A stretch of DNA of 41,827 bases from the NCBI GenBank assembly GCA_913020765.1, contig CAJWAO010000011.1:1-41827 (forward strand), given 5' to 3'. The notes under the pieces are model-generated. The model searched no databases and had not been told where the DNA came from. It saw only the letters and a list, made by a program, of their open reading frames with translations. Each line of letters begins with the position of its first letter. Position 1 is the first letter of the stretch. The stretch is from an uncultured Flavobacteriales bacterium (GTDB lineage Bacteria; Bacteroidota; Bacteroidia; Flavobacteriales_D; Crocinitomicaceae). Of this stretch, positions 6,206 through 12,281 are shown one piece after another. The position numbers were made by a program, and so were the translations under genes.

Positions 6206-7552
6206 TTAGCTGTAGAAAGGTGAAATCATGTAATATACAATCACACCGGTGATTGCAACGTAGAGCCAAATCGGAAAAGCCAATCTCGTCCACTTTTTAT
6301 GTTTCTCATAATTTCCTTCCCAAGCAAATTTGTAAGTGAACAGTACCAAGGGTATAACAACTAAACTCAAGAAAATATGAGAGACAAGAATGAAAAAATA
6401 GATACCCCGAGTATCTGATACAGCCATTGCCTCTGCACTTTCTAATATGCCGTTCCCATTAATATCTCCGTATTTTGTAGAGTCAGAAGTCATATGATAT
6501 AAAACATACAATAACAAAAATAAAACTGAGAAAGTGAGACATAATTGAACAATTCTTTGATGGAGTTTTAGTCTTTTGAATCTTATCGCAGCTAGGGCCG
6601 TTACCAAGCCAATGGCTGTCAAACCATTCAAGGAGGCATAAATAGGGGGTAGAAAAGATAGATCAAACCCTTCAATTTTCACAGAAAATAGAATACCAAC
6701 AGCCAAAGGAATGATTATAGAAACTGCGAGTATCGCATTTCTGAGCTTTTTGTTCGGGCGAGCTTTGACTTTATCTGTTCTCCCTTTTTGCGCAATAATT
6801 TTTTCTTTTATACCATTCCATAAATTTATTCTGTGTTGAAGTGCTTCTTGAGATACTTGAAGTACTTCCTCTACCTTTTTAGGATCATTTCCGCAAAGCT
6901 CCTCAACCATTTGGAGTGAAAGAGGACCGTGCTCATCCCCGTCTAGCTCAATATGACGGTCCAAATAGTACCTTAGCTTATTGAATCTTGTGTTTTTTGA
7001 ATCTGCCTGTTTTAAGATTTCTATAAACATGTCTGGAATCAAATCCTCTCGACCGAAAGTAAATGCAGCCGCAATACAGTGGGCTTTTCCAGACTCAATT
7101 ACTTCGAAAGTAAAGCGCATAAAATCTTTTGCACATTTTTCTACCTGCAAGCCTTCAATGATAGAATGAATAGATTTTTCTTCGTCTAGCTGAGTTAATA
7201 ATTCTTCGATTTGGGCTGTGTTTGCCTTAATTTGCAGCATGGAATCGATATACATCTCAAAATGGCTTTTCGCCTCACCCAATTCATTTATATCGCTTTC
7301 CTCAGCATGTACAATTTCATTAATGAACCTGGCCAATGAACCTTTAGGTTTAGGTTTCCAAGGTATTGACACTGTTGTAAGCTGAATCTGTAGTGCCTTG
7401 AGGAGAGACATAAAATCCCATACTGCGAATACATGCAAGGACATAAAAACCTTTATATCCTCGATGCTCTGAAGCTGTTCATACAGACTATGCTCTTTCA
7501 GCTGCCTTCGCAGAGGAGAAAGTTGGGTTTCTATGTATTCAATGTGTGTCAA
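6206..7552 (-). CDS. DUF3050 (heme-oxygenase-like) domain fused to DUF420 membrane domain
   Basis: 448 residues. Residues 1-255 resemble DUF3050, a helical heme-oxygenase-like family with candidate metal ligands His40, Asp46, Glu79, His82, Glu84/85, Glu150, His158, His200, Glu202 and His208. After a basic linker (about 256-271) come five predicted membrane helices (272-290, 302-324, 334-353, 383-408, 424-443), matching DUF420. DUF420 proteins such as Bacillus CtaM support cytochrome oxidase maturation and sit beside SCO genes in Bacteroidota, as here. Positive residues place the N-terminal domain in the cytoplasm. The loop between helices 3 and 4 carries an EF-hand-like sequence at 363-374. 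It is last in the oxidase operon, overlapping the SCO gene by 14 bases. The DUF420 call is firm; the DUF3050 call is good; the chemistry is unknown. Confidence 0.82.
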
Positions 7553-8213
7553 TATTGGTTGCTAATAGAACCTTTAGGTCTTCTAATAACCGATAATATT
7601 CAAGATTGTTTACCGAACCATCGAAGCCAGTTATGTTGTAAACACCTCTGAGGAAGCCTTTTGTATCAACCAAAGAGAACGCTCCAGAGTGCGCAAACCC
7701 ACCTTCTGCTTCTTCCTCGCGTCCGGCAAAAATTTTGAAACTTTCAATTCCCAATCGATGTGTGAATTTTTCATCGCCGGTCAGGAAATCCCAATTCTTA
7801 CAATTTTTACAATACAAGTTCTTGTATTTTTTTAAAGTTTCAGGAGTATCTTTTTCTGGGTCTATTGAGAAAGAAAGAAATTGAACCTGGTCTTTTTTAT
7901 CCATTGTGTTGACTTCCTCGAATAATTTGGTCATCTGTACGGTCATAATCGGACATATTGTAGGGCAGGTAGAAAAAAAGAACTCAGTAATCCAAACTTT
8001 ATTTGCATAGTTTTTATTTGTTACTTGAAGGCCATCCTGATTTTGGTATGTAAAAGATTGAACTGGCTGGTAAACAGTATCAATGACCTGTAAACCATCC
8101 TTTATAGAATACTCCAGGTCGTAATGTCCAATATAAGGAAGACTTCTTGACGATTCAACAGCTTCGCAGGCAGCCAGAAATAGAGTTAGTATTAACGTAA
8201 ATAAACGAATCAT
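7539..8213 (-). CDS. SCO1/SenC family copper chaperone, lipoprotein
   Basis: 224 residues. Lipobox LAAC gives a lipidated Cys16, so the protein is membrane-anchored in the periplasm. The thioredoxin fold carries the SCO copper site: Cys83 and Cys87 in STCPTICP, and His175 in FAHSGAF, all three ligands present. SCO proteins deliver copper to, and reduce the disulfide of, the CuA centre in oxidase subunit II. Cys135 and Cys138 (YCKNCKNW) form a second close Cys pair that is common in Bacteroidota SCO proteins. It starts 2 bases after the stop of the upstream SCO-like gene and overlaps the DUF3050-DUF420 gene by 14 bases, so it is part of one transcript. Confidence 0.93.
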
Positions 8214-8215
8214 TT

Positions 8216-8857
8216 TTACTTTGCGGCTTGTTTGTCGTATTGTTTTTGCAGTAGTGCCATACTTTGTTTCATTCGTCTAATTTGACCTTCTACATTACCA
8301 GATAGAACCATCCGAAGATGATGGTCTTTATCAATGAGTAACATGAGTTCTTGGAAATTCGCTTCTTCTTCTATCAGTGAGATGCCGTTATTTTCAAGGT
8401 TATAAATGCTTTTAACATCCCCGCTCGCTAAAATCCAAATAGACGGGTCGTAATTTTCTGCCAAGTCATTAATGGCATCATTGATTACAGATAGATCTTT
8501 TACTGAATTTCCTTTACCATCTGTTAAAAAAGAAATCATTCGAATTTGCTTTGTTTTTTTGGTTTTGTTTTTCCAAATGTGTTGGTAAATCGTTTGATTG
8601 ATATGCCACATGAGTACTGAGCAGCTGTCTGGGCATGAGCTCTGAAGGACATTTACAAGGACCACATCGTCTTTAAATTCACTTGAATTACGCTTAACGC
8701 CATTTGCATCGGTAAATTCAAATTCAGTGACAGGTCCGTAGTCTTCGAGCTCTTCAAAATTGTGCTCACAACTTCGTGTTCCTATAAAAATTAGTAGTAA
8801 AGCTGGGCCAAACACCAGGAGAAAACCAATAAGTCTATTTGCTCTTTTCTTAGCCAA
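8216..8857 (-). CDS. SCO-like thioredoxin-fold protein lacking the usual copper-ligand histidine
   Basis: 213 residues. One N-terminal membrane anchor (about 9-27, FLLVFGPALLLIFIG), then a periplasmic SCO/thioredoxin-like domain. Cys75 and Cys79 in SSCPDSC match the SCO CxxxC. At the place where SCO proteins carry the third ligand (xHS or DH just before the 'lIDp.G' strand), this protein reads NFQELMLLIDKDHHLR: the histidine before the strand is absent, though His179-His180 follow in the next turn. It may therefore act as a thiol-disulfide reductase for CuA or for its neighbour SCO rather than as a copper carrier; that is inference. It sits 9 bases after the subunit IV gene and 2 bases before the canonical SCO gene. 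Confidence 0.82.
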   Translation of the reverse strand: MAKKRANRLIGFLLVFGPALLLIFIGTRSCEHNFEELEDYGPVTEFEFTDANGVKRNSSEFKDDVVLVNVLQSSCPDSCSVLMWHINQTIYQHIWKNKTKKTKQIRMISFLTDGKGNSVKDLSVINDAINDLAENYDPSIWILASGDVKSIYNLENNGISLIEEEANFQELMLLIDKDHHLRMVLSGNVEGQIRRMKQSMALLQKQYDKQAAK

Positions 8858-8866
8858 GGAGATTTA

Positions 8867-9235
8867 TTAAAGACCAACACCTGACCAAGCGTCACCAACG
8901 GCCAAAGCTTCGGTTAATGCTATAAATATGAGGTAAAGGATAAATCCGGCATATGGCAGAAGTATAACATTCCGCATCCATGGCCTTTCATCTCCCAGGT
9001 GCATAAATACCATGATAATATATCCTGCTTTGAGAACCGTTAAAACAATAAACGTCCATTTTACATAAACCCAAAGCTCGGATGACTGTTTGATGTATGC
9101 ACCGAGTGCAACCTCAATTGCAGTGATAATAGTCAGTAAAAGTGTTACTTTCCATATTTTCTTTCGAAGCTCTTTTCCATGCTCTTCCGAGTGGTGCGAA
9201 TCTAAAGAATATTCAATTAAATCATCTCTTTCCAT
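8867..9235 (-). CDS. Cytochrome c oxidase subunit IV family protein
   Basis: 122 residues with a charged His-containing N-terminus (SHHSEEHGKE) and three membrane helices (about 28-48, 58-80, 90-110). The KAGYIIMVFMHLGDE stretch in helix 2 is the signature of the prokaryotic COX4/CyoD-like family (caa3-type subunit IV). It is a small structural subunit of the heme-copper oxidase. It lies between the second subunit III gene (16-base gap) and the SCO-like gene (9-base gap), the order usual in Bacteroidota. No odd features. Confidence 0.92.
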   Translation of the reverse strand: MERDDLIEYSLDSHHSEEHGKELRKKIWKVTLLLTIITAIEVALGAYIKQSSELWVYVKWTFIVLTVLKAGYIIMVFMHLGDERPWMRNVILLPYAGFILYLIFIALTEALAVGDAWSGVGL

Positions 9236-9251
9236 GATATACTTTTAATTA

Positions 9252-10310
9252 TTAAACGAGATAAAAAAATGTAAAAACAAAAACCCAGACTAAATCTACA
9301 AAATGCCAGTAAAGTCCAGTTTTTTCAACCATCTCATAATGTCCTCTTTTATGGTAGGTACCTTTAACGACCCCTATAAAAATCAAGATATTTATCAGCA
9401 CTCCCGAAAAAACATGAAATCCATGGAATCCTGTAATAAAAAAGAAAAAATGAGCATATTGCTGAGGCCCATATTCATTTTTCGTAGGCAACCAATGCTC
9501 GCCGTTTTCAAACCAAGGAGCGCCATAAGTCACCTTTGGGGTGCCACTATATAGGGAACCGTAATATAATTTTTCGGCCTCTTTACCATGGATTTTGTCA
9601 CCAATATTTCTTTTTGAGTCAGGGTTGGTTAGCTTTATGGTAAGCTCAAGATGATGGTCATGTTCTTTATAAACTTGGGCTATTGATCCATCGTGAAGAT
9701 GAATTTTTCCACCTTCATGAATATGGCCTTCCTTTGCTGCATGCTGAAAGGTATGCATTAAATCAGTGGTGATAACGTCTCCTTTCTTGTGATGTGTGCC
9801 TCCTTCTAAAACCGTAAAGTTCTTTAATTCCCCAAAATGGCCACTTACATTCGCTTCCGAACCATCCATCAGCTCTATTCTTCCAAATTGAGAACCGTGT
9901 ATGAAGTGACTCCATTCCCAAACTTGAGAACCCAAAAAGAAAAATCCACCAATTATGGTGGCAAGCATCCATTGTATAACTCCCTTCTTATCCATTCGGT
10001 GTCCTGCTTCGACTGCTAAAACCATAGTGACAGAGGACACAATCAGAATAAATGTCATTAATGCAACATAAATCAATGGGTAACCGTGACCTAAAAAGGG
10101 TAATGAATTAAAGGTTTCTTCTCCAATTGGCCAGGATTCTTGGGTATTATGTCTTACAAATCCATATGCTACAAGTAGCCCACTAAAGGTAAGTGCATCG
10201 GATACAAGAAAGAACCACATCATGAGCTTTCCATAACTTGTCTGGAAAGGGGATTCTTTTCCACCCCAAAGCGTTTTAGAGTCTAATTCAACAGTATTCG
10301 CGGCCATCAA
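9252..10310 (-). CDS. Cytochrome c oxidase subunit III (second copy) with histidine-rich insertion
   Basis: 352 residues. Five membrane helices with family signatures: WFFLVSDALTFSGLL in helix 1, VSSVTMVLAVEAG in helix 2, GSQVWEWSHFI at the end of helix 3, FFFFITGFHGFHVFSG in helix 4 and GLYWHFVDLVWVFVFTFFYL in helix 5. Between helices 3 and 4 a roughly 145-residue soluble insertion (about 139-283) holds some 14 histidines, with clusters THH (172-174), GHIH (195-198), HLH and EHDHH (217-220). An insertion here is normal for Bacteroidota subunit III, but this histidine density is notable. Subunit III stabilises the oxidase core and its proton supply. The preceding subunit III gene ends 20 bases upstream. 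Confidence 0.93.
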   Translation of the reverse strand: MMAANTVELDSKTLWGGKESPFQTSYGKLMMWFFLVSDALTFSGLLVAYGFVRHNTQESWPIGEETFNSLPFLGHGYPLIYVALMTFILIVSSVTMVLAVEAGHRMDKKGVIQWMLATIIGGFFFLGSQVWEWSHFIHGSQFGRIELMDGSEANVSGHFGELKNFTVLEGGTHHKKGDVITTDLMHTFQHAAKEGHIHEGGKIHLHDGSIAQVYKEHDHHLELTIKLTNPDSKRNIGDKIHGKEAEKLYYGSLYSGTPKVTYGAPWFENGEHWLPTKNEYGPQQYAHFFFFITGFHGFHVFSGVLINILIFIGVVKGTYHKRGHYEMVEKTGLYWHFVDLVWVFVFTFFYLV

Positions 10311-10330: not shown

Positions 10331-11392
10331 TTAGTGAATAAAAACCAAAAACAGTAGTAAATAGCCCCATAAAAGCCCCAAAAAATGCCAAAAAATAGAT
10401 GTCAAACGTAGTGAAAGATGGTTTTCCATTCCGAATTTATTCATGAATGTTTTCACAACAACTCCGCTCAAATAAATTAACGCTCCAGCGATATGCAGCA
10501 GATGTAGGAAGGTTAATATAAACAGGAAAGATGATGCCATGTCTGATGATTCCGTTGCTTTGATTTGAAGAAAATTCGACAATACTTTTCCTTTGTAGTA
10601 TAATTTACGATTGTTGTATTCAAGTTTTTCTCGTTTGTAAGAAATATTGAAATCCTCTCCTATTTTTCCTTTAGCGAAAAAGTCTCCGCGACCATCTACC
10701 ACATTTTGAGCTAGCTGTTTAAGCCTTAAAATATCTGCTGATTTCAAAGGTGTTGAATCGTTTACATAGAACGAATTATTTTGTACTGAAAGCGGCTCGT
10801 TATTGAAGATTAATTGGTATTCTTTCTGGTCTCCTTTGGTAATTAACCTGAACTTATTGTTATAGTTTTCGCCCGAAATGAACTCCTTCATGTACTCTTG
10901 GAAGGCTAAGAATTCCTCATTACTCATTTTTCTTTCATTCCATAAATAATCGTTTCCATCTAGGGAAATGAATCGACCATTTTTTTTAACCTCAAAATAA
11001 TCTCCATAGCGACCGTCAGTTACGACAATATGATTCTGAAATGGATGAACTCCTTTTTCAATCAGTTGTGCGAAGCCATTCCATTGAAAATAAACAAACA
11101 ATATACCCAAAAGAAGGGTTAGTGCCATTCCTCCTTTCATGAGCGATTCTCGACCCTGTCGTGCAGCTTTAATCGCTCCTATGAAAACCATACTACTTAC
11201 AAAGATACATCCCGTTCCCCACCAAAATGAGAGAGGGATCGGAGTTTCAAGCCAAAATGCATCTCCCATACTAACAATATATGCGGAGGTCAACCCTGCA
11301 AAAAGCATGATGATGCTAAAGCAGCTCACATAAACGAGATTTTTTTTCATTTTTTCGTGAACGACAGGGTCCACATCTTTAGATAAATCCAT
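10331..11392 (-). CDS. Cytochrome c oxidase subunit III (first copy) with large soluble insertion
   Basis: 353 residues. Helices: 18-40 (SCFSIIMLFAGLTSAYIVS), 53-76, 87-112 (LLGILFVYFQWNGFAQL), 286-313 (FLHLLHIAGALIYLSG) and 331-352 (SIFWHFLGLLWGYLLLF). These match the five-helix subunit III that forms the first of the tandem pair in this phylum, which is normally about 190-200 residues. The excess is a single hydrophilic, lysine- and asparagine-rich stretch from about 116 to 283, between helices 3 and 4, the same loop that is expanded in the neighbour. The gene overlaps the heme O synthase gene by 14 bases. The family call is firm; the role of the insertion is unknown. Confidence 0.9.
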   Translation of the reverse strand: MDLSKDVDPVVHEKMKKNLVYVSCFSIIMLFAGLTSAYIVSMGDAFWLETPIPLSFWWGTGCIFVSSMVFIGAIKAARQGRESLMKGGMALTLLLGILFVYFQWNGFAQLIEKGVHPFQNHIVVTDGRYGDYFEVKKNGRFISLDGNDYLWNERKMSNEEFLAFQEYMKEFISGENYNNKFRLITKGDQKEYQLIFNNEPLSVQNNSFYVNDSTPLKSADILRLKQLAQNVVDGRGDFFAKGKIGEDFNISYKREKLEYNNRKLYYKGKVLSNFLQIKATESSDMASSFLFILTFLHLLHIAGALIYLSGVVVKTFMNKFGMENHLSLRLTSIFWHFLGLLWGYLLLFLVFIH

Positions 11393-12281
11393 CAGACAAA
11401 AATTTAATATGTTCTACCTTGTCAAGGACATAAGTAAATTGAATTATTGGTAAATAAACAAAAGAAGCGAACATTAGTTTTCGTGCATCAGCATCTTCTT
11501 GACTGAGGTATAATTTATAGGCATAAATGAAAAAAAGTGTTCCAAGTAATGCGGCAATGACAAAGGTTGTATTTCCCGTCCAGTCTAAAAGCCATGGGAT
11601 TAAACTAAAAGGGATTAAAGCTATGGAATAAATTAGGATCTGAAATGCCGACTGCTTCGATCTTCCGAGAGAGGAGGGGAGTAATTGGTACCCCGCTTTT
11701 TGATAATCATCATGACTAACCCATGCAATTGCCCAAAAGTGTGGGAATTGCCAAGTAAATTGAATAAAAAATAATACACCTGGCAAGAATCCAAAAGCAT
11801 CCGTCGCCGCAATTGCTCCCAAAAATGGGGGTATGGCTCCTGGGAATGCCCCTACAAAAACTGCCCAAGCACTTTTAGATTTCATAGGTGTGTAAATAAA
11901 CACGTAGGAAATGAAAGCTGAAAAACCGAGGAGCATACATTTTAGGTTGATCAGGAGGAGTAAGACACTTCCGATGATAAGCAATATAATGACGATTGCA
12001 TAAGCAAATTTAAGACTCATAATACCGAGAGGAAGAGGCCTGTTCTGGGTTCTAGACATTAACTTATCTATGTCTCGTTCCCAAATTTGGTTGGCCCCAT
12101 TGGAGGCAGCTGTGACAAAAGAACCTCCGATCATAAGTAGCGCCACTTCTAGGTAGTTTGAACCACCGGCAAAAAGGTAACCTGTTAAAGCGGATAATAC
12201 CACGAGAAAGGATAATCTGAACTTCGTGAAAATCAATATTTTCTTGTAAAGCGTTTGCTTTGTTGAATCTTCTTGCGTCAT
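11379..12281 (-). CDS. ctaB: Protoheme IX farnesyltransferase (heme O synthase)
   Basis: 300 residues, a UbiA-family polytopic membrane enzyme with about nine helices. It transfers farnesyl from farnesyl diphosphate to heme b, giving heme O, the precursor of heme A for the oxidase. The first aspartate-rich motif is NGANQIWERDIDKLMSRTQN (61-80, with Asn64, Asp70, Asp72), followed by RPLP, and the second cytoplasmic motif is SHDDYQKAGYQLLP. This is the first gene of the oxidase cluster and overlaps subunit III by 14 bases. Its promoter should lie in 12282-12413, a divergent region shared with the enoyl-CoA hydratase gene; I could not identify a convincing -33/-7 pair there. Confidence 0.96.
   Translation of the reverse strand: MTQEDSTKQTLYKKILIFTKFRLSFLVVLSALTGYLFAGGSNYLEVALLMIGGSFVTAASNGANQIWERDIDKLMSRTQNRPLPLGIMSLKFAYAIVIILLIIGSVLLLLINLKCMLLGFSAFISYVFIYTPMKSKSAWAVFVGAFPGAIPPFLGAIAATDAFGFLPGVLFFIQFTWQFPHFWAIAWVSHDDYQKAGYQLLPSSLGRSKQSAFQILIYSIALIPFSLIPWLLDWTGNTTFVIAALLGTLFFIYAYKLYLSQEDADARKLMFASFVYLPIIQFTYVLDKVEHIKFLSDGFI

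Follow-up and report, generated by a model that had tools for sequence, protein, structure and literature searches.

Here, we characterized a gene in a 41,827-nucleotide stretch of DNA (hereafter, the window; contig CAJWAO010000011.1 of assembly GCA_913020765.1) from an uncultured Flavobacteriales bacterium of the Crocinitomicaceae. An open reading frame (ORF) check of the window showed that the gene, on the minus strand at 6206-7552, is an uninterrupted frame of 448 codons with a TTG start, which joins a DUF3050 domain to the CtaM-like membrane domain DUF420. Searches of Pfam with hmmscan matched both families far over cut-off: DUF3050 (PF11251) at residues 18-248 of the protein (E 2.5e-98, model positions 1-233 of 233, 328.8 bits vs. 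a cut-off of 22.2), and DUF420 (PF04238) at residues 301-443 (E 1.8e-37, model positions 1-130 of 130, 128.9 bits vs. 30.5). A preliminary description of the window had claimed a single frame joining these two domains and proposed the Pfam search; the frame stood, and both families were matched over the whole model. The gene and its parts are as follows (TM, transmembrane; dN/dS, ratio of nonsynonymous to synonymous substitution rates).

6206..7552, minus strand: DUF3050-DUF420 fusion gene (448 amino acids, TTG start; same frame in eight further genomes of the genus)
6803..7552, minus strand: DUF3050 (heme-oxygenase-like) domain, residues 1-250 of the fusion
6740..6802, minus strand: basic linker, residues 251-271, with a lysine/arginine (K/R)-rich end and dN/dS above both domains
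6209..6739, minus strand: DUF420 (CtaM-like) membrane domain, residues 272-448, with five predicted TM helices

The placement of the gene within an oxidase operon with heme O synthase and SCO proteins, as previously claimed, was confirmed by matches to CtaB, COX3, COX4 and two SCO proteins. The genes upstream of the fusion are listed below.

7539..8213, minus strand: SCO1/SenC protein, overlapping the fusion gene by 14 bases (PF02630, E 6.5e-26)
8216..8857, minus strand: second SCO-like protein (PF02630, E 2e-05)
8867..9235, minus strand: oxidase subunit IV, COX4 (PF03626, E 5.3e-12)
9252..10310, minus strand: oxidase subunit III, COX3 (PF00510, E 4.3e-11)
10331..11392, minus strand: second subunit III-type protein (PF00510, E 9e-05; 22.9 bits, slightly below the cut-off of 23.8)
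11379..12281, minus strand: heme O synthase CtaB (UbiA, PF01040, E 1.1e-54; named CtaB from context)

On the 3′ side of the fusion, an OmpA-domain protein and then DUF4403 are encoded on the opposite strand. As far as sequence reaches, the common order among fused stretches is CtaB-COX3-COX3-COX4-SCO-SCO-fusion-OmpA-DUF4403-IDH. The host genome (G000), probably a metagenome-assembled genome, is a 2.10-Mb draft (114 contigs; completeness 88.6%), in which profile searches found one DUF3050, one DUF420 and one COX1.

Distribution and maintenance of the fusion

A survey of 86 genomes of the genus, of the kind that the preliminary description had proposed, found DUF3050 in 76 and the intact fusion in nine (G000, G100, G104, G122, G132, G145, G147, G148, and G152; 433-449 amino acids), and none was seen outside the genus. 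Among 100 genomes of the family, a fused-length frame occurred in G000 only. At the level of the order, DUF3050 was present in 233 of 399 genomes with no fusion seen beyond the genus, where open frames reached at most 358 codons among the matches listed; in the phylum survey, where 188 of 395 genomes had a match, only G000 spanned both domains among the matches listed. Among the best 80 of 591 relatives, all but one of 79 loci matched only up to residue ~294 of the fusion. The nearest named record (L089, "MAG: Crocinitomicaceae bacterium TMED16") is 79% identical over residues 1-448, and its domain is identical to that of G100. Long open frames in G590 and G542, considered as other DUF420 fusions, proved to be plain 177-amino-acid DUF420 genes behind SCO. 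Indeed, DUF420 stands alone in most other genomes of the genus and family, in open frames of ~170-205 codons, as was earlier held to be usual. G106 and G113 share the gene order of the fused stretches as far as sequence reaches, but carry a 174-amino-acid DUF420 alone and a 264-amino-acid DUF3050 elsewhere; in G113, the separate DUF3050 has CotH and a gene for a CHU_C (type IX secretion signal) protein beside it. The closest unfused DUF3050/DUF420 pair found on one contig among the survey rows read is ~68 kb apart (G168). The fusion was found in a small group of marine bacteria and has been kept in several species with no other CtaM found.

The genome survey found one DUF420 match per fused genome, and in seven of the nine fusion genes the stretch from residue 240 to the start of TM1 (~271) is free of in-frame ATG, GTG, and TTG codons. 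G148 and G100 are the exceptions, with an in-frame start codon within the linker; G122 has a GTG at 272. CtaM is therefore probably present only as a fusion in most of these genomes. In alignment with the G106 and G113 proteins, the fusion lacks no more than about ten residues at the end of DUF3050 and about five at the start of DUF420, and a short, variable linker joins the two. Across the 10 of 36 pairs in scope, unsaturated pairs gave dN/dS values of 0.045-0.052 for DUF3050, 0.023-0.056 for DUF420, and 0.15-0.69 for the linker (here residues 251-270); of the eight pairs with the window, seven were saturated for DUF3050, six for DUF420, and four for the linker. DUF3050 halves of the other fused species differ from that of the window at 73-90% of synonymous sites.

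An assembly artefact or chimera might be suspected in a 114-contig draft, more so with broken copies in G144, where one locus has a frameshift inside DUF420 and another a stop in the linker. Diverged versions of the same fusion in nine genomes, with the oxidase locus on both flanks, effectively rule this out. The two G144 versions (L176 and L177) are differently broken, and the one nearly identical to G145 has its changes clustered in the linker.

Predicted properties of the two halves

Residue conservation in DUF3050, counted over an alignment of 175 rows, points to the following proposed metal ligands.

7298..7300, minus strand: E85 (E in 174 of 174 rows with a residue, one gap; spacing compared with PMC4520260)
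7262..7264, minus strand: H97 (175 of 175 rows)
7046..7048, minus strand: E169 (175 of 175 rows)
6929..6955, minus strand: H200-x3-D204-x3-H208 (each 175 of 175 rows; helix predicted at residues 191-220)

By sequence comparison, the spacing of E85, H97, E169, H200, D204, and H208 is nearly that of the ligand set predicted in PMC4520260, and the conserved residues would suit a dimetal site. The "full set" of seven ligands named earlier holds in part: H40 (174/174), E79 (174/175), H158 (167/175), H200, and H208 (both 175/175) are conserved, but H82 (His in only 54/175) and E150 (Glu in only 55/175) vary even inside the fused clade, and the invariant E85, H97, E169, and D204 had been missed. A structure model bears out the helical heme-oxygenase-like fold claimed for this half, which is the fold of the heme-oxygenase-like dimetal oxidases/oxygenases (HDO). 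In HDO, three His and three carboxylates from three core helices serve as ligands, and the enzymes bind two metals and activate O2. A literature search on structure 9VWB found no paper on it. Residue 227 of the fusion (6872-6874, minus strand) is Trp in 159 of 160 other DUF3050 rows; this Trp is missing in the fused rows, G106, G113, and L090.

The DUF420 half has, by hydropathy, five hydrophobic segments with positive-inside charge, in keeping with the four or five helices of CtaM. K/R residues number 8 in the 20 positions ahead of TM1 and 5 in each of the TM2-TM3 and TM4-TM5 loops, vs. 0 and 1 in the remaining loops, and the DUF3050 half should therefore be cytoplasmic, as the preliminary description had suggested. 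Four histidines (His331, His353, His392, and His418) are invariant in 66/66 DUF420 rows. The loop between TM3 and TM4 carries a further feature.

6440..6466, minus strand: EF-hand-like loop DINGNGILE, TM3-TM4, predicted outside from sequence

Of the 66 DUF420 rows, 13 carry the corresponding DxNx[DN]G motif; the fused G147 protein, G106, and G113 lack it.

CtaM (to judge from the available portions of this and the other literature on CtaM, HamA and SCO-DUF420 proteins cited here) is needed for aa3/caa3 oxidase activity, whereas heme A synthesis and insertion do not require it (PMC8239418; PMC9145763). In both Bacillus and Staphylococcus, a functional oxidase depends on CtaM, which is described as essential with its role in oxidase assembly still to be assigned (PMC9145763); copper export or reduction has been proposed (PMC13344008).

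Possible roles and related systems

What the DUF3050 half contributes was approached through its stand-alone relatives. When oxidase-operon proteins of the window were compared with all ORFs of 164 stand-alone DUF3050 loci, the only match was a weak SCO-like one (L157, E 8.8e-05), so that the earlier idea of looking for DUF3050 beside oxidase operons gave essentially nothing. This neighbor test is only partial, because flanking sequence is limited: 58 of the 164 loci extend <2 kb in one direction, and 81 extend 5 kb or more in each. Neighbors, identified from one member scanned per neighbor cluster, are varied (AspRS, MetAP, TrpB/TrpA, FabI-type) and give no consistent functional hint: of the 175 rows, 54 have AspRS immediately ahead of DUF3050 (51 belong to the window's own genus), MetAP is a neighbor in 12 rows, and TrpB and TrpA flank DUF3050 in five. 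The five flavobacterial loci L138, L145, L146, L149, and L153 have DUF3050 between TrpB- and TrpA-type genes, a few bases from the upstream one. A flavin-reductase-like gene (L112:7342-7977) lies 23 bases before DUF3050, with the same cluster directly before DUF3050 in L113; its product is a possible redox partner. AurF-family proteins (PF11583) were matched in none of 16 genomes, G000 itself being 88.6% complete.

Replacement of heme A synthase (CtaA) by the DUF3050 half would suit a position next to CtaB and an O2-dependent chemistry class, and PMC8239418 places DUF420 at the root of CtaA. Yet the CtaA family is present in 15 of the 16 genomes checked, including nine of the ten with the fusion or broken copies (as no more than a fragment in G145 and G148), and the sole exception, G147, is 67% complete. 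We accordingly consider such replacement highly improbable. With varied neighbors and CtaA so widely retained, the heme-handling, sensing, or cofactor-modification roles suggested earlier are unsupported as well.

Because of these neighbor, CtaA, and AurF results, our first choice is simple tethering of two halves that both work, and we think it fairly probable that a lineage-specific fusion has left the CtaM half assembling the oxidase and the DUF3050 half keeping its own O2-dependent reaction, tied to the assembly site. A DUF3050 gene from elsewhere on the chromosome would have been inserted just after SCO and ahead of DUF420, with its frame continuing into the start of DUF420. The CtaM half would then perform a late oxidase-assembly step, as indicated for CtaM in Bacillus, and the DUF3050 half may retain catalysis on its own substrate, now presumably produced in step with the oxidase and anchored at its assembly site.

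Several observations weigh against this account. The metal site is predicted from the conservation and spacing of its candidate ligands, and the DUF420 part of the full-length structure model is poor (predicted local distance difference test, pLDDT, mostly <60), only two of the 36 rows in its alignment covering that half. Although the fused rows, L177, G106/G113, and L090 form one group of 14 in the 175-row DUF3050 tree (SH-like approximate likelihood ratio test, SH-aLRT, 100), unfused rows fall inside the fused group, as do G106/G113 in the DUF420 tree. With the split allele L177 scored as unfused, the trees imply three changes of state, at least two forced by well-supported branches, and 0% of 200 DUF420 bootstrap trees had one change. 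A single clade of fused rows plus L177 was not rejected by the approximately unbiased test (p-AU 0.211 for DUF420, leaving out the long-branch rows L194 and L036; 0.289 for DUF3050, on 35 hand-chosen rows of 175). A single fusion with later separation, or poor tree resolution, may account for this pattern, and more than one fusion is also possible. Finally, the G144 locus with the linker stop matches the intact locus of G145 at 99.75% identity across 10 kb; such a natural split suggests that the fusion may not be essential.

The same split allele, along with the relaxed linker and the varied neighbors of stand-alone DUF3050, fits a bystander fusion, a tolerated rearrangement whose only effect is on how an unrelated DUF3050 enzyme is expressed and where it sits. 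We regard this as a serious possibility, somewhat short of even. It has to be set against retention across species diverged at most synonymous sites of the DUF3050 half and against the need for CtaM in Bacillus and Staphylococcus, since a harmful appendage on a protein required for oxidase function should be lost. Should the halves be mere bystanders, the gene would be a clean example of a soluble enzyme acquiring a membrane anchor via fusion.

Functional coupling, in which the cytoplasmic dimetal domain itself contributes to oxidase maturation (for example, in an O2-gated late step at the CuB/heme site, or in handling the copper that CtaM is proposed to reduce or export), seems to us unlikely, although the partner gene closes an assembly operon, the fusion is kept in nine genomes, and the CtaM copper role proposed in PMC13344008 cites planctomycete SCO-DUF420 fusions as support. 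Apart from the L157 match, no oxidase-operon protein was found at the stand-alone loci, whose flanks are partial, and HamA homologues serve diazeniumdiolate pathways of proteobacteria. The probabilities of these readings overlap, because tethering fits both coupling and a bystander fusion.

More speculative still is the idea that the sole CtaM carries a catalytic dimetal domain using O2 at the cytoplasmic face for, or gating, a late maturation step at CuB or a heme center. If so, oxidase completion would depend on oxygen, and a dimetal domain in oxidase biogenesis would offer a handle on what CtaM does; this would be, to our knowledge, the first HDO with a role in respiration. The natural fusion is a concrete experimental link between CtaM and DUF3050 proteins and a ready test construct.

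No description of a DUF3050-DUF420 architecture was found in the literature searched, which covered few subscription papers, in line with the earlier statement that no such system was known; a search combining the host family with oxidase terms likewise found nothing. The 7 papers containing DUF3050 and the 24 containing DUF420 have a single one in common, a cysteine/DUF database paper (PMC12828279, covered at listing level). Among known systems, the ham, pvf, and mgo clusters encode the DUF3050 proteins HamA, PvfA, and MgoB, and HamA homologues are part of diazeniumdiolate pathways in proteobacteria. Those clusters carry an AurF-type N-oxygenase and a nonribosomal peptide synthetase, whereas the AurF partner is missing from all 16 genomes here, and a pathway of this type was rejected. 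CADD (a self-sacrificing p-aminobenzoate synthase of Chlamydia, in which conserved Tyr and Lys side chains are turned into the product), UndA, and HrmI are 12-15% identical to the DUF3050 half. The CtaM/YozB proteins of Bacillus subtilis and Staphylococcus aureus are also DUF420 membrane proteins linked to heme-copper oxidase, with four or five helices and, in the available part of PMC9145763, no mention of an enzyme domain such as the fusion adds. Planctomycete SCO-DUF420 fusions (PMC13344008) likewise place an N-terminal partner on DUF420; compared by mention only, that partner is a copper chaperone, in contrast to the cytoplasmic oxidase-type domain predicted here.
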